Shown one piece after another: positions 22,032-31,206 of a stretch of DNA of 64,000 nt (within the stretch, counting starts at the first letter, position 1; every line of letters starts with the position of its first letter). Origin of the DNA: Streptomyces puniciscabiei (GTDB lineage: Bacteria; Actinomycetota; Actinomycetes; Streptomycetales; Streptomycetaceae); NCBI RefSeq assembly GCF_006715785.1, contig NZ_VFNX01000001.1, positions 2,060,501-2,124,500 on the forward strand, read 5' to 3'. The translations under genes were made by a program, and so were the position numbers. The notes under the pieces are model-generated. The model ran no database searches, was not told the DNA's origin, and worked only from the letters and a program-made list of their open reading frames with translations.

Positions 22032-22913
22032 TCAGGCATTGTCCCGGATGCCCGCGAAGAGGTCGTCCTCGGGGAGGGAGGTGTCGACGAGGGACTTCGC
22101 CAGCTCGTACTCCTCCGTGGGCCAGACCTCCTTCTGCAGCTCCATCGGGACCTTGAACCAGCCGCCGTCGGGGTCGATCTGCGTGGCGTGCGCGATCAGC
22201 GCCTTGTCGCGGATCTCGAAGAAGTCCGCGCACGGGATGTGCGTGGTCAGGGTGCGTTCGACACGCTGCATCTCGTCCCAGCGCTTGAGCCACTCCCCGT
22301 ACGGCGACTCCATGCCGCGCTCGAGCATCGCGTGGTGCAGCGCCTCGGTGCGGGGACGGTTGAAGCCCTGGTTGTAGTACAGCTTCAGCGGCTGGTAGGC
22401 GGGCCCGTACTCGGCCTCCGGGTACTTCTCGGTGTCCGCCGCACCCTCGAACGCCACCATGGAGATCTTGTGGGTCATGATGTGGTCGGGGTGCGGGTAG
22501 CCGCCGTTCTCGTCGTAGGTGGTGATCACCTGCGGCCGGAAGGAGCGGATCTGCTTCACCAGCTCGCCGGCCGCCTTGTCGACGTCCTCCAGGGCGAAGC
22601 AGCCCTCGGGCAGCGGCGGCAGCGGGTCGCCCTCGGGCAGGCCGGAGTCGACGAAGCCCAGCCACTCCTGCTTGACCCCGAGGATCTCGCGGGCCTCGTC
22701 CATCTCCTTCTTGCGTACCTCGTGGATGTGCTCCTCGATGTACCTGTCGCCCTGGAGCTTCGGGTTGAGGATGGACCCGCGCTCTCCGCCGGTGCACGTC
22801 ACCACCAGCACGTCCACCCCCTCGGACACGTACTTCGCCATGGTGGCCGCGCCCTTGCTCGACTCGTCGTCGGGGTGCGCGTGAACGGCCATCAGTCGCA
22901 GCTGGTCAGTCAA
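22032..22913 (-). CDS. mca: Mycothiol S-conjugate amidase
   Basis: A protein of 293 residues of the PIG-L deacetylase fold. Mca cleaves mycothiol S-conjugates to mercapturic acids and GlcN-inositol, removing electrophiles and antibiotics in actinobacteria. The zinc site residues are visible: AHPDDESSKG near the N-terminus and GGYPHPDHIMTH near residue 140. The tail with HIPCADFFEIRDKALIAHATQIDPDG is typical of Mca rather than MshB. The start is TTG 22913 with GAGG upstream; later Met codons would cut the zinc motif region. It is the first gene of a short minus-strand unit with the small membrane protein. Confidence 0.93.
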   Translation of the reverse strand: MTDQLRLMAVHAHPDDESSKGAATMAKYVSEGVDVLVVTCTGGERGSILNPKLQGDRYIEEHIHEVRKKEMDEAREILGVKQEWLGFVDSGLPEGDPLPPLPEGCFALEDVDKAAGELVKQIRSFRPQVITTYDENGGYPHPDHIMTHKISMVAFEGAADTEKYPEAEYGPAYQPLKLYYNQGFNRPRTEALHHAMLERGMESPYGEWLKRWDEMQRVERTLTTHIPCADFFEIRDKALIAHATQIDPDGGWFKVPMELQKEVWPTEEYELAKSLVDTSLPEDDLFAGIRDNA

Positions 22914-23029
22914 GACTCAATCCTCGGTAAGTCGGCGCCCCCGTGGCTCCGGGCGCAGTCGGCGACTTCTATAGTGACGGAATCGGGGGGCGAATAATTC
23001 CGGGACCGGTTCCGGCCGAGAGGACGATC

Positions 23030-23428
23030 ATGAGTACGGCGAGCACGCGGCTGCCCGAGGGCCGCTACGGCCGTTCCTCGGACGAGCGCACGGACCGCAG
23101 GCTCAAGGTCGCCGGTGCGGTGCTCGGTGCGGCCCTGCTCGCACTGGTCGGTTACTTCGCCTACCACTATGTCGCGGAGAGCAGGATCAGCGCCCAGGTG
23201 ATCGCCTTCGACGCCACGGACAACGCGGTCGAGGTGCATCTGGAGGTCCGCAAGGACTCCGGCACCTCGGGCTACTGCACCCTGCGCTCCCAGGCGGCGG
23301 ACGGCTCCGAGGTGGGCCGGGCCGACTTCCGCTTCACCGGGCCGGCCACGCGCATCGACCGGGTCGTCACGCTGCGTACGACGGCGAAGGGCACGACGGC
23401 GGAGCTGCTCGGCTGTCACACGGGCTGA
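23030..23428 (+). CDS. DUF4307 membrane-anchored protein
   Basis: A protein of 132 residues. ATG 23030 is preceded by GAGAGGAC. A charged N-terminal 30 residues lead into one helix (GAVLGAALLALVGYFAYHY) and an extracytoplasmic beta-rich domain with two Cys residues (SGYCTLRS and LLGCHTG) that probably form a disulfide. This is the DUF4307 family, of unknown role. It is divergent from mca; TATAGT at 22970-22975 is a likely -10. Confidence 0.8.
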   Translation: MSTASTRLPEGRYGRSSDERTDRRLKVAGAVLGAALLALVGYFAYHYVAESRISAQVIAFDATDNAVEVHLEVRKDSGTSGYCTLRSQAADGSEVGRADFRFTGPATRIDRVVTLRTTAKGTTAELLGCHTG

Positions 23429-23616
23429 CGGGGCCGGACATCCCCGGCATCACCCGGAATACGTACGCGCTGACCTGCGTTGATGTAATTCTGATGGCTT
23501 ATGTCCTCCCCCTTCCGGCCTCGAATTGTTAGGCTCGTGGTTTCGCCCACCCGAGAGGGAACATTCTTCTGGGTAGGGCGATGCTTTGTATTCCCAGTAC
23601 CGACGAGGAGCACCCT

Positions 23617-24117
23617 GTGACCCAGACCAGCGAGAACGTCACCTGGCTGACCCAGGAGGCGTACAACAAGCTCAAGGACGAGCTTGAGTACCTTACTGGT
23701 CCTGCGCGCACGGAGATCGCCGCCAAGATCGCGGCCGCGCGCGAGGAGGGCGACCTGCGCGAGAACGGCGGGTACCACGCGGCCAAGGAGGAGCAGGGCA
23801 AGCAGGAGCTGCGCGTGCGGCAGCTGACCCAGCTTCTCGAGAACGCCAAGGTGGGCGAGGCTCCGGCCTCCGCCGACGGTGCCGTCGCGCCGGGCATGGT
23901 CGTCACGATCGCCTTCGACGGTGACGAGGACGACACGCTGACGTTCCTGCTCGCCTCCCGCGAGTACGCGAGCTCCGACATCGAGACGTACTCGCCGCAG
24001 TCCCCGCTCGGCGCGGGCGTGATCGGCCACAAGGTCGGCGAGGACGCGGAGTACGAACTGCCGAACGGCAAGAAGGCCTCGGTGCGGATCCTGAAGGCCG
24101 AGCCGTACTCGGGCTGA
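23617..24117 (+). CDS. greA: Transcription elongation factor GreA
   Basis: A protein of 166 residues. GTG 23617 has GAGGAG six bases upstream, so I prefer it to the ATG 36 bases earlier. The N-terminal coiled coil (WLTQEAYNKLKDELEYL, then AREEGDLRENGGYHAAKEEQ, with the acidic tip that enters the RNA polymerase channel) and the C-terminal FKBP-like domain (SPLGAGVIGHKVGEDAEYEL) are both present. GreA stimulates transcript cleavage by backtracked polymerase. It forms a single-gene unit ending before a hairpin and the MITE-like element. Confidence 0.95.
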   Translation: MTQTSENVTWLTQEAYNKLKDELEYLTGPARTEIAAKIAAAREEGDLRENGGYHAAKEEQGKQELRVRQLTQLLENAKVGEAPASADGAVAPGMVVTIAFDGDEDDTLTFLLASREYASSDIETYSPQSPLGAGVIGHKVGEDAEYELPNGKKASVRILKAEPYSG

Positions 24118-24204: not shown

Positions 24205-24454
24205 CTAGGTCCTGTCGTCAAACTCCCGTCGTCGCCCGGAGGGCGGCCCTGCGGCGTCAGGTGCGTGCTCTGGGGGTCCCCCCGGCCGAAGGCTGGGGGA
24301 GTGCCGGGCGCTGACCCTCGTACTGGATGTACTTGGGTCTGCGCCCGGTGCGGCGAGTGGGGGTGCCCCCTTTGGGGGAGCGTGCATGGCGTCGCGGGGC
24401 TGGGGGCACCGCCCGGCCGAAGGCTGGGGGAGGGAGTTTGACGACAGGGCCTAG
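24205..24454. mobile_element. MITE-like element with 19-bp inverted ends and CTAG target duplication
   Basis: The ends match at 18 of 19 positions as an inverted pair: GTCCTGTCGTCAAACTCCC at 24209-24227 and its complement at 24432-24450. CTAG flanks both ends (24205-24208 and 24451-24454). The core is 242 bp and encodes no transposase. It carries two copies of CCGGCCGAAGGCTGGGGGA (about 24282-24300 and 24412-24430) that fold with nearby C and G runs. A four-base CTAG duplication fits IS5-family transposition, so mobilisation in trans is likely. The right CTAG supplies the TAG stop codon of the permease-phosphatase gene. Confidence 0.75.
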
Positions 24455-27099
24455 CGGACGCCCGGTCGCGGGAGGTCCTGTTCGGTCCAGATGGTCTTGC
24501 CGGCGCTGGTGTAGCGCGTGCCCCAGTGGTGGGTCATCTGGGCGATGATGAACAGGCCCCGCCCTCCCTCCTCGTCGCTCGCGGCGTGCCGCAGATTCGG
24601 CGAGGTGTGGCCGGTGTCGGAGACCTCGCAGATCAGGGCCCGGTCGCGGATCAGGCGTACCTGGATCGGACCGCCGACGTAGCGGATGGCGTTGGTGACC
24701 AGTTCGCTGACGACGAGTTCGGTGGTGAACGCCAGGTCGTCCAGCCCCCAGTCGCCGAGCTGCTTGCCGACGGCGGTGCGGATGGTGGCCACCGCCGCCG
24801 GGTCCGGGAGTACCGACCACTCGGCGAACTGGTTCCGGTCGAGCAGGCGGGTGCGGACCACGAGCAGCGTCGCGTCCACGTCCACCGGCCCGGGCAGCAG
24901 CGTGGCCACCGCCCTGTCGCACAGCTCCGCCAGGGACCCGTGGCCGCCGGTAAGGACGCGGGACAGCCGGGCGAGCCCGGCGGCACGGTCGTCGGCCGCC
25001 TGGAGGAGGCCGTCCGTGCAGAGGGCGAGGAGACTGCCCGGCGCGAGGTCCAGTTCCGTGCTCTGGTAGGGCGGCCCGCCGATTCCCAGCGGCGGCCCGC
25101 TCGGCAGCTCCGGAGAGTCGACGACGCCCGTGCGCGCGTCGACGACCGCCAGCACCGGCTCCCCGGCCCGCGCAAGCGCGCAGCTGCCCGAGACCGGGTC
25201 GTACACCGCGTACAGGCAGCTGACGCCCATGGCCTCGTCGGTCTGCGGTTTCGGGTGGCCCGGGCCCCGGTCGGCCCCGCCCTCGTACGAGGTCTGCTCG
25301 ACCAGGTCGGCCAGGCGGGACAGCAGCTCGTCCGGGCTCAGGTCCAGCCGGGCCAGCACGCGCACCCCCGTACGCAGGCGTCCCATGGTGGCCGCGGCAC
25401 GCAGGCCGTGCCCGAGCACGTCTCCGACGACCAGGCCGACGCGTGTGCCCGACAGGGGAATGACGTCGTACCAGTCGCCGCCCACCCCCGACCCGCTGTC
25501 GGCCGGCTGGTAGCAGCTCGCCGAGTCGACGGCGGCGTGGGCCGGCAGGCGGCGCGGCAGCAGGCTCCGCTGCAGCTTGAGGGCCACGGTGTGGCCACGG
25601 GTGACCACCGGCATGAGCAGCAGACCGATCAGCAGGGCGCCGAGGCCCAGGACGGTGACCCCGCCCGTCCTCCCGATCAGCGGCAGGTCGACGGCGGTCA
25701 TGCCGTACCCGGGTTTCGCGTAGACGGCGAAGGCGGCGTAGAGGAACAGCGAGAACATCATCAGCGCGCCCAGCGCCGGCAGTACGCCCTTGAAGACCAG
25801 GTCCCTGGTGCTGCGGGTCAGGACCTTGCGGTAGTACCAGAGGCAGGCGAAGCCGGTCACTCCGTACTGGAACGCGATCGCGAGACCGACCGATTCGACC
25901 GAGTCGGCCAGGATGTTCTGGCTGAACGACGTCAGCAGGACGAACAGGGCGATCGAGGCCGCTCCCATGCCGACCGTGCCCCAGGTCGGGGTGAGAAACC
26001 TGCGGTGGAGCCGGGCGAACCGGGCGGGGACCGCCTTGTGGACCGCCATGGAGAAGACGGTCCTGGACAGGGGCAGGATGGTGGTCTCGGCGGAGGCCAG
26101 CGCGGAGGTCAGCACCATCAGGACGAGCATGCGCGACAGGAGCAGCCCGGTGCCGTCCGTCCCGAACACGGCCTCGCCCAGCTGGGAGAGCACATCGTCC
26201 GAGTTGCGCGTGTTGCCGAGCCCGATGCCCGAGGTGCCGACTCCCGCGAACGACTGCGCCGAGGTGGACACCAGGCCGTACATGACCAGCAGCAGCACGG
26301 TGGACATGACCGCGGCGCGCCCAGGGACGCGCGTGCTGTCGACGGTTTCCTCATTGACCGAGAATGCCGTGTCCCAGCCCCAGTAGATGAAGACCCCCGC
26401 GAGGATGCCCGAGGTCAGAGCCCTGGCCGAGGGCACCTCGAACGGGTTGAACCAGGAGGCGGAGACATGGATCGCCGTCGGGGGCGGGTCGGTGTAGACC
26501 CTGACCAGCGCCGCGACGGCGAACACGATCAGCATCAGCACTTCCAGGCACAGCAGCCAGCGCTGGACGGCCGCCGAGAACTCGATGCCGACGTAGCAGA
26601 TCGCGGTGAGCACGGCGATCCAGGCGATGCCGACCACGGTGGTCCACAGCCGGCTCTCCGCCAGTGCGTCCAGGCCCACCAGCCGGAAGCCGTAGGCCGC
26701 GGAGATCTCGGCGAGGTTCGCCATGACGATGGTGTTGGCGACGATGAGTCCCCAGCCGCCCATCCAGCCGACGCGCGGTCCGAGGGCGCGCGTGGCCCAG
26801 GTGAAGGTGGTCCCGCAGTCCGCGTTGCTCGCGTTGAGCTCCCGGAAGGCGTACGCGATCAGCAGCATCGGGATGAACGCCAGCATCGTGACGATCGGGG
26901 CCTGCAGCCCGACCCCGGCCACGATGACGCCGAGCGTCGCGGCCAGGCTGTAGGCCGGGCCGGCGGAGGCAAGGCCCATGGCCACCGAGGAGAAGATGCC
27001 CAGGGCGTCGGTCTTCAGCCCCTTCCGGCCGGCGCCCGTCCCGGGAGCGGGGAGGTCTGCGGGCACGACGCCGCCAAAGTGCCTCACACTTGATTGCAA
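24451..27099 (-). CDS. Fusion: APC amino-acid permease, SpoIIE phosphatase and RsbW-type kinase
   Basis: A single uninterrupted frame of 882 residues. Residues about 25-500 are a 12-helix APC-superfamily permease (TDALGIFSSVAMGLASAGPA at the start, IYWGWDTAFSVNEET near 240). Residues about 505-750 are a PP2C-like SpoIIE phosphatase: GVGGDWYDVIPL with D542 and VVGDVLGHG with D560 as metal ligands, LLALCTDGLLQ near 695, VDATLLVVR. Residues about 755-878 are an anti-sigma kinase ATPase: ELVVSELVTNAIRY (N-box), VSDTGHTSPNLR and EGGRGLFIIAQ. A transport or sensing unit is thus tied to both enzymes of a sigma-factor partner switch. The start is TTG 27099 with GGAGG 13 bases upstream; GTG 27087 is the alternative. 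The stop lies in the MITE target site. Confidence 0.9.
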   Translation of the reverse strand: MQSSVRHFGGVVPADLPAPGTGAGRKGLKTDALGIFSSVAMGLASAGPAYSLAATLGVIVAGVGLQAPIVTMLAFIPMLLIAYAFRELNASNADCGTTFTWATRALGPRVGWMGGWGLIVANTIVMANLAEISAAYGFRLVGLDALAESRLWTTVVGIAWIAVLTAICYVGIEFSAAVQRWLLCLEVLMLIVFAVAALVRVYTDPPPTAIHVSASWFNPFEVPSARALTSGILAGVFIYWGWDTAFSVNEETVDSTRVPGRAAVMSTVLLLVMYGLVSTSAQSFAGVGTSGIGLGNTRNSDDVLSQLGEAVFGTDGTGLLLSRMLVLMVLTSALASAETTILPLSRTVFSMAVHKAVPARFARLHRRFLTPTWGTVGMGAASIALFVLLTSFSQNILADSVESVGLAIAFQYGVTGFACLWYYRKVLTRSTRDLVFKGVLPALGALMMFSLFLYAAFAVYAKPGYGMTAVDLPLIGRTGGVTVLGLGALLIGLLLMPVVTRGHTVALKLQRSLLPRRLPAHAAVDSASCYQPADSGSGVGGDWYDVIPLSGTRVGLVVGDVLGHGLRAAATMGRLRTGVRVLARLDLSPDELLSRLADLVEQTSYEGGADRGPGHPKPQTDEAMGVSCLYAVYDPVSGSCALARAGEPVLAVVDARTGVVDSPELPSGPPLGIGGPPYQSTELDLAPGSLLALCTDGLLQAADDRAAGLARLSRVLTGGHGSLAELCDRAVATLLPGPVDVDATLLVVRTRLLDRNQFAEWSVLPDPAAVATIRTAVGKQLGDWGLDDLAFTTELVVSELVTNAIRYVGGPIQVRLIRDRALICEVSDTGHTSPNLRHAASDEEGGRGLFIIAQMTHHWGTRYTSAGKTIWTEQDLPRPGVR

Positions 27100-27403: not shown

Positions 27404-27787
27404 ATGGACAGCGAGGACCGACGGGGGGACGGGCACAGGGAGCTGAGGGTGTCCGTCGACCGCCTCGACGGCTGGACGTTCACCAGCCTGGCGGGCACGA
27501 TCGACATCTTCACCGTGCCGGGGCTGCGGACGCACCTGGGAGCACTCGTGGCCGACCATGGCGGGCGTCCCCAGGTGATCATCGACCTCGGCGGCGTCAC
27601 CTTCTGCGACGCGCATGGACTGGGTGCGCTCATCGGTGCCCACCGGACGGCCGTCCGGCGCGGAGGCACGGTGCGCGTGGTGGTTCCCCAGGGGCGCGTG
27701 CGCAGGCTGCTGCGCATCGCCAGACCGACGCATGACCTCGAGCTCCACGAGACCCTGAGCGACGCGGTCGCAGTCGGCCCCCGGTGA
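27404..27787 (+). CDS. STAS-domain anti-sigma factor antagonist
   Basis: A protein of 127 residues. ATG 27404 has GGAGG seven bases upstream. The STAS fold is clear: WTFTSLAGTIDIFTVPGLR, then VIIDLGGVTFCDAHGLGALI. In SpoIIAA/RsbV proteins the loop reads D-S-S-G-L and the first Ser is phosphorylated by the kinase. Here it reads D69-A70-H71-G72, so neither Ser exists. The protein may be locked in the active, unphosphorylated state or act only as a binding partner. It lies divergent from the permease-phosphatase-kinase gene, its natural candidate partner. Confidence 0.9.
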   Translation: MDSEDRRGDGHRELRVSVDRLDGWTFTSLAGTIDIFTVPGLRTHLGALVADHGGRPQVIIDLGGVTFCDAHGLGALIGAHRTAVRRGGTVRVVVPQGRVRRLLRIARPTHDLELHETLSDAVAVGPR

Positions 27788-27821: not shown

Positions 27822-28622
27822 TCAACCGGCGGCCCGGCGGTACTTGCGCACCGCGAGCGTGCGGAAGATCAGGATGATCACGACCGACCAGATCAGCGAG
27901 GCCGGCACGGGGTGCTGCATGGGCCAGGCGCCGGACGTCTGGAAGCCCGGGGGAAGGTTGCCGAACAGCTCGCGGCACGCCTGCACGGTGGCGCTGAACG
28001 GGTTCCACTCCGCTATGTGCCGCAGGAAGGCCGGCATCTTGTTCGCGTCCACGAACGCGTTGGAGATGAAGGTCAGCGGAAACAGCCAGATCAGACCGCC
28101 CGAGGTCGCCGCTTCGGGAGTGCGTACGGACAGGCCGATGAGCGCGCCGATCCACGAGAACGCGTACCCGAGCAGCAGGAGCAGGGCGAATCCGGCGAGC
28201 ACCTTGCCGAGGTTCTCGTGCGTGCGCCAGCCGACGATCAGGGCGACGATCGCGAGAACGAGCAGGGTCAGAGCCGTCTGGACCAGGTCGGCGAGGGTGC
28301 GCCCGGTCAGCACCGCACCGCGCGCCATGGGCAGGGAGCGGAAGCGGTCGATGAGGCCCTTGTGCATGTCGTCGGCGATGCCCGCACCTGCGCCCGCCGT
28401 GGCGAACGTGACGGTCTGGGCGAAGATGCCGGCCATCAGGAACTCGCGGTACGCCTGGGTGGAGTGGGACGCGCCGACCTGGATCGAGCCGCCGAAGACA
28501 TAGGTGAACAGCACCACGAACATGATCGGCTGGATCAGCCCGAAGACCAGCATCTCGGGAATCCGGCCCATGCGGATCAAGTTCCGGTGGGCGACCACCA
28601 GGGAATCGCTGACGGCGCTCAT
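27822..28622 (-). CDS. ABC-2 type exporter permease (DrrB-like)
   Basis: A protein of 266 residues with six predicted helices and the ABC-2 family signature region (DMHKGLIDRFRSLPMARGAV, then LTGRTLADLVQ). The C-terminal part with ISNAFVDANKMPAFLRHIAE and WNPFSATVQACRELF is typical of DrrB, the membrane half of the daunorubicin exporter. The substrate here is unknown. The start ATG overlaps the stop of the ATPase gene by four bases (ATGA), so the pair is co-translated. Confidence 0.9.
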   Translation of the reverse strand: MSAVSDSLVVAHRNLIRMGRIPEMLVFGLIQPIMFVVLFTYVFGGSIQVGASHSTQAYREFLMAGIFAQTVTFATAGAGAGIADDMHKGLIDRFRSLPMARGAVLTGRTLADLVQTALTLLVLAIVALIVGWRTHENLGKVLAGFALLLLLGYAFSWIGALIGLSVRTPEAATSGGLIWLFPLTFISNAFVDANKMPAFLRHIAEWNPFSATVQACRELFGNLPPGFQTSGAWPMQHPVPASLIWSVVIILIFRTLAVRKYRRAAG

Positions 28623-29605
28623 TTCACAGTCTCCTCGGCGGTCGTCTCGTCGTCCTGGGCGGCGGTCTCGGCCACGTGTCCCGTCAACGACAGGAAGACG
28701 TCGTCGAGGGTGGGGCGGCGCAGCCCGATGTCGTCTATCTCGATCCCGCGGGTGTCCAGCTCGCGGATGATCTCGGCGAGCAGCTTGGCACCGCCGGTCA
28801 CCGGGACCGTGAGCCCGCGGGTGTGCTCCTCGACCGTGACCTCGCCCTTGCCCAAGCCGCTCAGCACCTCTGCGGCGCTCGCGATGTGCTCGCGCTCGTG
28901 CACCACGACCTCGACGCGCTCGCCGCCGGTGCGGGCCTTGAGCTGGTCGGAGGTGCCCTGGGCGATGACCCGGCCGTGGTCGACCACCGCGATGTCGTGG
29001 GCGAGGTGGTCGGCCTCCTCCAGGTACTGCGTGGTCAGGAGCAGGGTGGTGCCGCCGGAGACGAGCTGTTTGATGACCTCCCACAGCTGCTGGCGGTTGC
29101 GCGGGTCCAGGCCGGTCGTCGGCTCGTCCATGAACATCACCGGCGGCGAGACCACGAGGGCCGCGGCGAGGTCGAGCCGGCGGCGCATGCCTCCGGAGTA
29201 GGTCTTGGTGGGCCGGTCGGCGGCGTCCGCGAGGTTGAACTGCTCCAGCAGTTCGGCCGCGCGCGCCTTCGCCGCCCTGCCCTTCATCTGGTACAGCTGC
29301 CCGACCATCACCAGGTTCTCCCGGCCGGTCAGATACTCGTCGACCGCCGCGAACTGGCCGGACAGGCCGATGGAGCGGCGTACCGCGTCGGGGTCCTTGA
29401 GCACGTCCACACCCGCGACGACCGCCTTGCCGCTGTCGGGGCGCAGGAGCGTGGTCAGGCAGCGGACGGTCGTCGTCTTGCCTGCGCCGTTCGGCCCGAG
29501 GAGGCCGAGGACCGTGCCCTCGGGCACGTCCAGGTCTACGCCGTCTAGAGCCCTTACGTCACCGAAGGTCTTCACCAGGCCTTCGGCATGGATGGCGCCT
29601 GGCAT
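28619..29605 (-). CDS. ABC exporter ATPase (DrrA family)
   Basis: A protein of 328 residues. ATG 29605 has GTGGAGA six bases upstream; GTG 29617 is possible but has no site. Walker A GPNGAGKTTT, signature TYSGGMRRRLDLA, Walker B VMFMDEPTTGLD and the switch His region LLTTQYLEEADHLA are present. The C-terminal 90 residues are the DrrA-type regulatory extension (GLRRPTLDDVFLSLTGH). It is an energy-coupling subunit for drug or lipid export with the permease encoded next. There is no adjacent regulator gene, although two palindromes lie upstream. Confidence 0.92.
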   Translation of the reverse strand: MPGAIHAEGLVKTFGDVRALDGVDLDVPEGTVLGLLGPNGAGKTTTVRCLTTLLRPDSGKAVVAGVDVLKDPDAVRRSIGLSGQFAAVDEYLTGRENLVMVGQLYQMKGRAAKARAAELLEQFNLADAADRPTKTYSGGMRRRLDLAAALVVSPPVMFMDEPTTGLDPRNRQQLWEVIKQLVSGGTTLLLTTQYLEEADHLAHDIAVVDHGRVIAQGTSDQLKARTGGERVEVVVHEREHIASAAEVLSGLGKGEVTVEEHTRGLTVPVTGGAKLLAEIIRELDTRGIEIDDIGLRRPTLDDVFLSLTGHVAETAAQDDETTAEETVK

Positions 29606-29658
29606 GTCTGTCTCCACGTCATCGGGGATCGTCGTCCGGGATTCTTCGGAAAGGTTAG

Positions 29659-29674
29659 GTTTGCACGTTCAAAC
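29659..29674 (-). promoter_or_regulatory. Candidate TetR-type operator upstream of the ABC exporter
   Basis: GTTTGCACGTTCAAAC is a 16-base palindrome with one mismatched pair, 54 bases before the ATPase start. Its form (TTTGnACGTTCAAA) is like operators of TetR-family exporter repressors. Confidence 0.5.
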
Positions 29675-29739
29675 GCGCCTGCGTTTTTTCCGAGGACGGG
29701 CAAAGAACCCGCGAGCAGCGCGCCTTCAGCACACACCAT

Positions 29740-29757
29740 AACGCGATATATCGCGTT
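29740..29757 (-). promoter_or_regulatory. Perfect 18-bp palindrome upstream of the ABC exporter
   Basis: AACGCGATATATCGCGTT is perfectly symmetric and AT-centred in a GC-rich context, which marks it as a likely protein-binding site (PadR- or TetR-like). It lies 135 bases upstream of the ATPase start and downstream of ilvA. Confidence 0.5.
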
Positions 29758-29801
29758 CCTCAATGGACTTCACCTGATCGAGTGCCGAAGGGGTACGAGA
29801 G

Positions 29802-29841
29802 GCGGCCCGGCCTCAGTCGATGCGGCCCGGCCTCAGTCGAT
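29802..29841. repeat. 20-bp perfect tandem duplication across the ilvA stop codon
   Basis: GCGGCCCGGCCTCAGTCGAT occurs twice without a gap (29802-29821 and 29822-29841). The second copy holds the last codons and the TGA of ilvA. Confidence 0.9.
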
Positions 29842-31062
29842 GACGGTGTAACCCGCGTCCCGCAGGGCCTGGCCGACCTCGGCGCAGTGCACCGGGCCCT
29901 TCGTCTCGAGGTGCAGCTCCACCTCCGCCTCCGTGAGCCCGAGCCGGGGGTCGGTGCGAACGTGGCTCACGTCGAGGACATTGGCGTCGACCGCCGACAG
30001 CACCCCGAGGAGCGTGGCGAGGGCGCCCGGGCGGTCGGTCAGCCGGAGCCGAACGGCCAGGTAGCGGCCCTGCGCGGCCATGCCGTGCCGCAGCACGCGC
30101 TGCATCAGCACCGGGTCCACGTTCCCGCCGGAGAGCACCGCGACGACCGGCCCCTCGAAGGTGTCCGGTGCGGCCAGCAGCGCCGCGACCGGGCTCGCCC
30201 CGGCCGGTTCCACGACCAGCTTGGCCCGTTCCAGGCACAGCAGCAGCGCGGCCGACAGCTGGTCCTCGCTGACCATGCGCACCTCGTCGACCAGGTCCCT
30301 GACGATCACGAACGGCACCAGGCCCGGCCGCCCCACCTTGATGCCGTCGGCCATCGTCGCCGGGTTCCGGACCGCCACCGGGTGCCCGGCGGCCAGCGAG
30401 GGCGGGTAGGCCGCCGCGCCCTCCGCCTGCACGCCCACGATCCTGACGTCCGGCCGGATCGCCTTGACCGCGACCGCGATCCCCGCCGCGAGCCCGCCGC
30501 CGCCGATGCCGACGACGATCGTGCGCACCTCCGGGCACTGCTCCAGGATCTCCAGGCCGACCGTACCCTGACCGGCGATGATGTCCGGGTGGTCGAAGGG
30601 GTGGATGAACACCGCGCCCGTCTCGGCCGCGTACTCCTCGGCGGCGGCCAGCGTCTCGTCGACCACCTGGCCGTGCAGGCGCACCTCGGCGCCGTAGTCG
30701 CGCGTAGCGCTGATCTTCGGCAGTGGCGCGCCCTTCGGCATGAACACCGTGGAGTGCACACCGAGCAGCGAGGAGGCCAGCGCCACACCCTGCGCGTGGT
30801 TCCCGGCGCTCGCGGCCACCACCCCGGCCGCCCGCTCCTCCGGCAGCAGCCCCGAGATCCGCACATAGGCGCCGCGCAGCTTGAACGAGCCGGTCCGCTG
30901 CAGGTTCTCGCACTTCAGATGCACCGGCGCGCCGACCAGCTGGGTCAGGTGCCGGCTGCCCTCCATCGCGGTCACCCGTGCCACGCCGGAGAGCATCTTC
31001 TGCGCTCCTCGCACATCGTCCAGGGTGACGGAACGCAAGGAGTCAGCCGTGCCGTAGCTCAT
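29833..31062 (-). CDS. ilvA: Threonine dehydratase (threonine ammonia-lyase) with ACT domain
   Basis: A protein of 409 residues of the shorter, catabolic-like class. The fold-type II PLP enzyme domain spans residues 1-320: TGSFKLRGAY with the Schiff-base lysine, SAGNHAQGVA, VGIGGGGLAAG for the phosphate, and LSGGNVD. A single ACT-like domain follows (VRLRLTDRPGALATLLGVLS). It converts threonine to 2-oxobutyrate for isoleucine synthesis or catabolism; the choice between the two is not decided by sequence alone. ATG 31062 has GATGCT six bases upstream, so the message is probably leaderless. Confidence 0.92.
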   Translation of the reverse strand: MSYGTADSLRSVTLDDVRGAQKMLSGVARVTAMEGSRHLTQLVGAPVHLKCENLQRTGSFKLRGAYVRISGLLPEERAAGVVAASAGNHAQGVALASSLLGVHSTVFMPKGAPLPKISATRDYGAEVRLHGQVVDETLAAAEEYAAETGAVFIHPFDHPDIIAGQGTVGLEILEQCPEVRTIVVGIGGGGLAAGIAVAVKAIRPDVRIVGVQAEGAAAYPPSLAAGHPVAVRNPATMADGIKVGRPGLVPFVIVRDLVDEVRMVSEDQLSAALLLCLERAKLVVEPAGASPVAALLAAPDTFEGPVVAVLSGGNVDPVLMQRVLRHGMAAQGRYLAVRLRLTDRPGALATLLGVLSAVDANVLDVSHVRTDPRLGLTEAEVELHLETKGPVHCAEVGQALRDAGYTVID

Positions 31063-31206
31063 GACTCCAGCATCGCAGTTCACGGTCGTACACGACGGGT
31101 GTGACCAAGCGGCGAGACCGGTTTGCGCAGCGCCGGTACGGTCCGCCGCCGGGCCGCGTACCCTGTCCCCCAACCCAGCAGCCCTTCATGAAGCGAGCCT
31201 CCGGCC

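Follow-up and report, generated by a model that had tools for sequence, protein, structure and literature searches.

Can a complete transporter take the place of the sensor domain in a bacterial partner-switching enzyme? The question is raised by a gene of Streptomyces puniciscabiei, a species linked to potato scab. A stretch of 64,000 nucleotides from its genome (the window) was found to contain one minus-strand frame of 882 codons, with TTG as the first codon and without an internal stop, in which an APC permease is followed by a SpoIIE/PPM phosphatase and an RsbW-like kinase. The initial annotation had described this single chain without naming the strand; the frame and the motifs quoted from it were present in the translation, and the three domains AA_permease_2, SpoIIE and HATPase_c_2 were each matched above the curated Pfam cut-offs (Table 1). 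We lean, with a confidence slightly above even, to the reading that the protein is a transceptor, in which the APC permease does the sensing for a SpoIIE/RsbW-type partner-switching enzyme.

The fusion is real and no artefact, because it is carried by 25 genomes and by the best 120 of 7338 database matches. Chance is no explanation: at least 120 database proteins (these best 120, including P0002, the window's own record) were found to share its domains at an identity of 76-100%, and in nearly all of them the match runs over the full length; among them the usual label is just 'amino acid permease' and the named sources are nearly all Streptomyces. The best named match is P0003 of Streptomyces puniciscabiei, with 95% identity. 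In searches with the permease half, the window's genome counted, the fusion was found in 9 of 150 genomes drawn from the genus and in 17 of 200 drawn from the family, the carriers in the family draw spanning three genera (g1, g13, g14), and a draw of 394 genomes from the class, with three candidates scored per genome, gave five carriers, all of the own genus. These amount to 25 different genomes, in each of which the SpoIIE sequence after the permease was checked. The fusion is old enough to be common to three genera. Ten other permease loci with long open frames were rejected as further fusions: the extra length lies before the permease, at most 96 residues follow it, and no SpoIIE domain was found after the permease in these ten, which were the long-frame rows inspected (G361 and G631 being among those left out).

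It is highly improbable that the frame was joined by a sequencing error or that two proteins arise through internal initiation. A few database entries begin inside the frame (P0123, P0125-P0127, P0130), as such a start would predict, but the 25 genomes share the same unbroken frame with database proteins that come from several sources, with neither the stop nor the frameshift near residue 500 that the initial annotation had named as grounds for giving up the fusion. The internal ATG at codon 496 has no Shine-Dalgarno-like sequence ahead of it in the window copy, and Met496 is a residue of transmembrane helix 12 (TM12) that hardly varies when one fusion is aligned with 26 stand-alone permeases. 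Because of these two features of codon 496, two separate proteins are not indicated.

The permease part was found to have the APC fold, and a profile search with it against the PDB was useful, unlike a phmmer search, which gave no useful match. NCBIfam gave only matches far below cut-off for the fusion protein, including TIGR00909 (amino acid transporter), an RsbA-type anti-sigma family, a urea-carboxylase-associated permease and an ethanolamine permease. The kinase part contained the N box at residues 794-807 followed by DTG at 828-830 and GGRGL at 845-849. No PAS, GAF or STAC domain was found by Pfam between the permease and the enzymes, and neither SSF nor HisKA was matched at E<=1 in the protein, which is therefore not of the CbrA/CrbS type. 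The claim that a whole transporter stands where sensors normally sit was upheld by nine scanned SpoIIE proteins, in which this place is occupied by PAS, GAF or Cache domains.

In a structure model of the monomer, one continuous helix was found to lead from TM12 into the phosphatase linker, and no indels were found at residues 481-520 in 144 other fusion sequences. The junction reads VVTRGHTVALK-LQRSLLP in the fusion as against RYTREHSMAVT-LQRSLLP in an example of a GAF paralogue, a likeness which suggests that the GAF domain was replaced by the permease while the connecting helix was kept.

The mean column entropy of the permease was 0.63 bits in the 25 fusions and 0.66 bits in 19 stand-alone sisters of at least 59% identity, two sets of unmatched breadth, and 90 of the 102 columns that are near-invariant in stand-alone permeases stay so in the fusions. 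As far as alignment can tell, the permease core is conserved about as in its stand-alone sisters, and because it is so kept the permease is judged not to be a decayed anchor. The clearest change lies at residue 93 in the TM2-TM3 loop, where Ala was found in 25 of 25 fusion loci and Pro in all 53 stand-alone permeases compared. A motif count among the listed database proteins gave Pro in 113 of 120 stand-alone permeases (Ala in 2, motif absent in 5) and Ala in 113 of 121 fusions (Ser in 2, motif absent in 6). Residue 411, in TM10 of the model, was Tyr in the stand-alone permeases compared, and among 145 fusion sequences (the window protein, the 120 listed proteins including P0002, and 24 loci, with possible duplicates) it was Gln in 111, as in the window protein, Tyr in 19 and His in 15.

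In the catalytic half, the window copy was found to contain all four metal-site residues D542, D560, D696 and D742. Residue 696 was Asp in 57, Gly in 58, Glu in 11, Ala in 9 and others in 10 of the 145 fusion sequences, with 16 parsimony changes on the tree. Among 110 related catalytic halves, of which at least two (P0132, P0133) are fusion pieces, it was Asp in 97, Asn in 11 and Gly in 2, and among 29 SpoIIE-kinase paralogues of the window's genome Asp in 25, Asn in 3 and Pro in 1. D696 aligns with the Asp of the SpoIIE SDG motif in the 5mqh alignment; the putative metal side chains of B. subtilis SpoIIE are D628, D746 and D795 (PMC5468089), and the equivalent of D696 is taken, by alignment, to be D746, a putative metal ligand. 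The full set of metal aspartates is thus not common to the fusion family, D696 being lost in 88 of 145, and the statement that the metal ligands look intact stands for the window copy and fails for the family. The kinase residues E799, N803, D828, G846 and G848 were invariant in 145 of 145, in line with the earlier view that the ATP motifs of the window copy are intact. G830 of the DTG box was Gly in all 145 fusions versus Ser in 76 of the 110 related halves. The window copy keeps a full phosphatase site, whereas many other family members seem to be without that site and still to have the kinase.

In a FastTree phylogeny of 78 permease domains the stand-alone permeases enclosed the 25 fusions, which formed a single clade (support 0.86), and because of this placement a single fusion event is likely. 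The closest stand-alone permeases are about 70% identical to the window protein. In a tree of 141 catalytic halves, for which 22 of the 25 fusion halves could be cut out, these 22 were grouped with the metagenome entries P0132 and P0133 (support 1.0), which are fusion pieces because both begin with TM12; the next branch contained GAF-SpoIIE-kinase proteins, with a weak joining node (0.46). Genome G040 contains both the fusion (L064) and a stand-alone permease (L071) of 61% identity. In L071 (6511-10672) and L119 (7911-11335) the stand-alone permease is followed on the same strand by a separate SpoIIE gene, at 140 and 126 bp, respectively. These pairs are possibly two-gene versions of the fusion, and at 2 of 30 stand-alone loci the arrangement is too infrequent to weigh.

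At least 47 further SpoIIE frames were found in the stretches examined of the window's genome, some weaker matches being left out, and one of the 47 (L148) has an N-terminus of many helices. It was found to contain an SSF symporter at residues 36-443 (Pfam, E 1.4e-86) followed by PAS, GAF, SpoIIE and HATPase_c_2. Open frames of at least 1200 with this type of symporter were present in 8 of 81 genomes, the SpoIIE part being Pfam-checked in the window's genome, and two stand-alone symporters are 69-70% identical. Because this SSF fusion exists besides the APC fusion in the same genome, the replacement of a sensor by a transporter happened at least twice.

The neighbouring STAS-domain gene (27404-27787, plus strand, divergent from the fusion gene) had been put forward as the partner, and this did not hold. 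No match at E<=1e-20 was found in 60 other genomes of the genus, including six carriers of the fusion, a threshold that diverged orthologues would escape. Its DSSGL-type site reads DAHGL, without the usual Ser, and so has Ala and His at the position that we take to be that of the phosphorylatable residue in RsbV/SpoIIAA relatives. The gene was rejected as the cognate partner, being neither conserved nor equipped with the usual phosphosite, and no partner-switching operon with a linked, conserved STAS gene carrying Ser/Thr was found here. No gene family besides the fusion recurs in all 25 fusion neighbourhoods, and the one seen most often is in 4 of 25; among 55 loci compared only the permease/fusion family was present in all, and the next most frequent families occurred in 5 (crude gene calls of our own, the fusion loci L139 and L147 being short contigs). 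The target of the fusion protein is probably encoded elsewhere, because no neighbour family is shared and the adjacent STAS protein is unconserved and without the usual phosphosite. Another SpoIIE gene adjoins the fusion divergently in L067 (8175-13391), L138 (7659-12810) and L139 (4121-9268).

The description as an 'amino-acid' permease holds by family name only; some stand-alone relatives adjoin amine/polyamine genes. Within about 8-10 kb on each side of the permease, less at contig ends, six families of amine/polyamine breakdown or related aldehyde oxidation were found at 11 of 30 stand-alone loci versus 0 of 25 fusion loci (Fisher p 5e-4, which is overstated, since the families were picked after the loci had been viewed and the loci are not phylogenetically independent). 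Matches above curated cut-off were agmatinase in L128, aminobutyraldehyde dehydrogenase in L129 and L072, and a class III aminotransferase in L072; below cut-off the stand-alone loci gave carboxynorspermidine-synthase-like, FAD-oxidoreductase and PuuR-like matches, and 3 of the 11 loci depend solely on a generic aldehyde dehydrogenase. With low confidence, these neighbourhoods suggest an amine, a polyamine or a related organocation as the likeliest ligand.

The start codon of the fusion gene is uncertain between TTG at 27099 (codon 1) and GTG at codon 12; the latter gives 871 residues, and the matching database record also has 871 aa. The G+C content at third codon positions was 0.94 overall and 0.88-0.98 across blocks of 60 codons, no TTA codon was present in the gene, and a scan for promoter and terminator detected none, being uninformative here. 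By our own reading of the sequences, without a family search, the gene is flanked at 22032-24117 by an mca-like amidase gene, a DUF4307-like gene and greA, and at 27822-31089 by an ABC-2 transporter and an ilvA-like threonine ammonia-lyase gene; none of these flanking genes was found beside the eight other fusion loci compared.

Table 1. Features of the fusion gene and of the second transporter-SpoIIE fusion; positions refer to the window unless another sequence is named.
Feature	Position	Strand	Evidence
Fusion gene APC permease - SpoIIE/PPM phosphatase - RsbW-like HATPase	24451..27099	-	882 codons
AA_permease_2 match, residues 33-461	25717..27003	-	Pfam, E 7.3e-29, 101.4 bits (cut-off 27)
Residue 93, TM2-TM3 loop, Ala in fusions / Pro in stand-alones	26821..26823	-	alignment
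Continuous helix 480-513, TM12 into phosphatase linker (alpha0)	25561..25662	-	structure model
SpoIIE/PPM phosphatase domain, residues 551-750	24850..25449	-	Pfam, E 7.5e-43, 147.1 bits (cut-off 25)
Metal-site Asp542 (GGDWYDV)	25474..25476	-	Asp 145/145
Metal-site Asp560 (GDVLGHG)	25420..25422	-	Asp 139/145
Metal-site Asp696 (CTDGLL)	25012..25014	-	intact in window copy, Asp 57/145
Metal-site Asp742 (DVDAT)	24874..24876	-	Asp 145/145
RsbW-like HATPase_c_2, residues 765-871	24487..24807	-	Pfam, E 3.6e-12, 46.8 bits (cut-off 27.4)
SSF symporter-PAS-GAF-SpoIIE-HATPase_c_2, 1193 aa	L148 1574-5152; window's genome C4:289573-293151		Pfam

One chain, a conserved permease core, a direct splice of TM12 into the linker and invariant kinase motifs are what the sequences themselves supply, and by this anatomy the permease is a plausible sensor. 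Substrate binding or the transport cycle would shift TM12 and the cytosolic loops; the continuous helix would then alter the packing of the PPM switch helices, as crossing linkers do in RsbU, and the altered packing would change the activity of the phosphatase, the kinase or both. The target would be a STAS anti-anti-sigma protein encoded elsewhere, so that the output would be a sigma factor. Because the phosphatase looks disabled in many family members, what is conserved as output is probably the arm of kinase and anti-sigma activity. Several points weigh against the transceptor reading. There is no conserved gene neighbour, so that no partner or target is linked; the absence of indels at the junction is weak evidence, most permease blocks being equally indel-free; and the invariance of the kinase residues extends to the 110 related halves with other sensors, so that it is uninformative on coupling. 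Since 88 of 145 sequences have lost D696, the output that the family shares cannot be 'transport drives phosphatase'. A conserved permease core would be expected just as much of a protein that simply transports and has an enzyme attached, and the substrate proposal draws on 11 of 30 stand-alone loci, which include only 5 of the 19 closest sisters, with families picked post hoc.

These points leave room for two other accounts of the same chain. The permease may be an anchor only, holding the enzymes at the membrane and perhaps transporting, with its state exerting no control. No direct evidence of coupling stands against this, and conservation near that of stand-alone sisters is expected under selection for transport alone; however, a full-length transporter of 12 helices would be a costly anchor, and the junction uses a helix thought to control PPM phosphatases (PMC12143880), so that we hold this account to be unlikely. 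Signalling may also run in the reverse direction, the phosphatase/kinase sensing the cell state (ATP, STAS phosphorylation) and gating the permease, which would suit the conserved transporter core, the invariant ATP-site motifs and the P93A change of the TM2-TM3 loop in 25 of 25 fusion loci. The catalytic pair nevertheless has PAS, GAF or Cache inputs in the nine SpoIIE proteins and so looks like an output module, and we regard gating of the permease as quite improbable. We know of no gating of transport by a SpoIIE-kinase module. The transceptor reading, with permease sensing, is the best explanation of the way the fusion is built. A wider proposal is that streptomycetes repeatedly swapped the cytosolic sensors of SpoIIE-RsbW proteins for transporters (APC, and SSF in L148), the APC type being a mechanical transceptor working through the TM12-linker helix, with a phosphatase mostly decayed to a coupling scaffold and a transporter state that gates the anti-sigma kinase for an amine/polyamine response; this we offer tentatively and consider doubtful as a whole.

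The fusion would point to what feeds into one of this genome's many SpoIIE proteins, and a family in which a metal ligand was lost repeatedly while the kinase site stayed invariant would provide a natural series on which enzyme is the output. With no PAS, GAF or STAC found between the transporter and the enzymes, the fusion would also allow a minimal test of whether a phosphatase/kinase can be driven by nothing but the conformation of a transporter.

The initial annotation knew of no described sensor of this form. For this combination none was found: titles and abstracts of the open-licence literature gave no description of a SpoIIE protein with an APC or SSF transporter joined to it, an absence that is no proof, and the excerpts of PMC3924187 and PMC9866976 do not mention such a fusion. 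The principle itself is known from the transporter-kinase fusions CbrA and Ks-Amt5, and a second transporter-SpoIIE fusion exists in the same genome.

The catalytic half has its best structural match in 3ke6 (Rv1364c of M. tuberculosis), which likewise contains phosphatase and anti-sigma kinase in one chain; its order is PAS-RsbU-RsbW-STAS, with a PAS sensor instead of the permease and a STAS domain of its own (PMC12143880). The 5TMR-SpoIIE proteins likewise join a transporter-related membrane fold to a SpoIIE phosphatase, and their fused domain was called unprecedented by its authors, but the fold is that of an S-component, the proteins are prevalent in archaea and not in bacteria, and the excerpt mentions no RsbW (PMC11109136). 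GerAB, a germinant receptor subunit, is likewise a bacterial ligand sensor of the APC superfamily that works through the transport pocket; it differs as a separate subunit of a spore receptor, with no phosphatase or kinase mentioned in its chain (PMC8617281). Ks-Amt5 of Kuenenia likewise uses a transporter domain as a sensor, joined without PAS, HAMP or STAC, and differs in being an Amt trimer with a histidine kinase (PMC5764959). In CbrA of Pseudomonas a complete secondary transporter and a signalling kinase likewise share one chain; its transporter part transports histidine, its signal is still debated between binding, transport and a downstream domain, and transporter-receptor fusions are called rare in bacteria (PMC13022988). 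CbrA is built as SLC5-STAC-PAS-histidine kinase with a response regulator (PMC13022988), whereas the fusion contains APC, PPM phosphatase and RsbW-type kinase; the SSF fusion of L148 is closer to the CbrA layout than is the APC fusion. Set beside these systems, the fusion varies the transceptor principle by giving it a new output module; the principle itself is not new.
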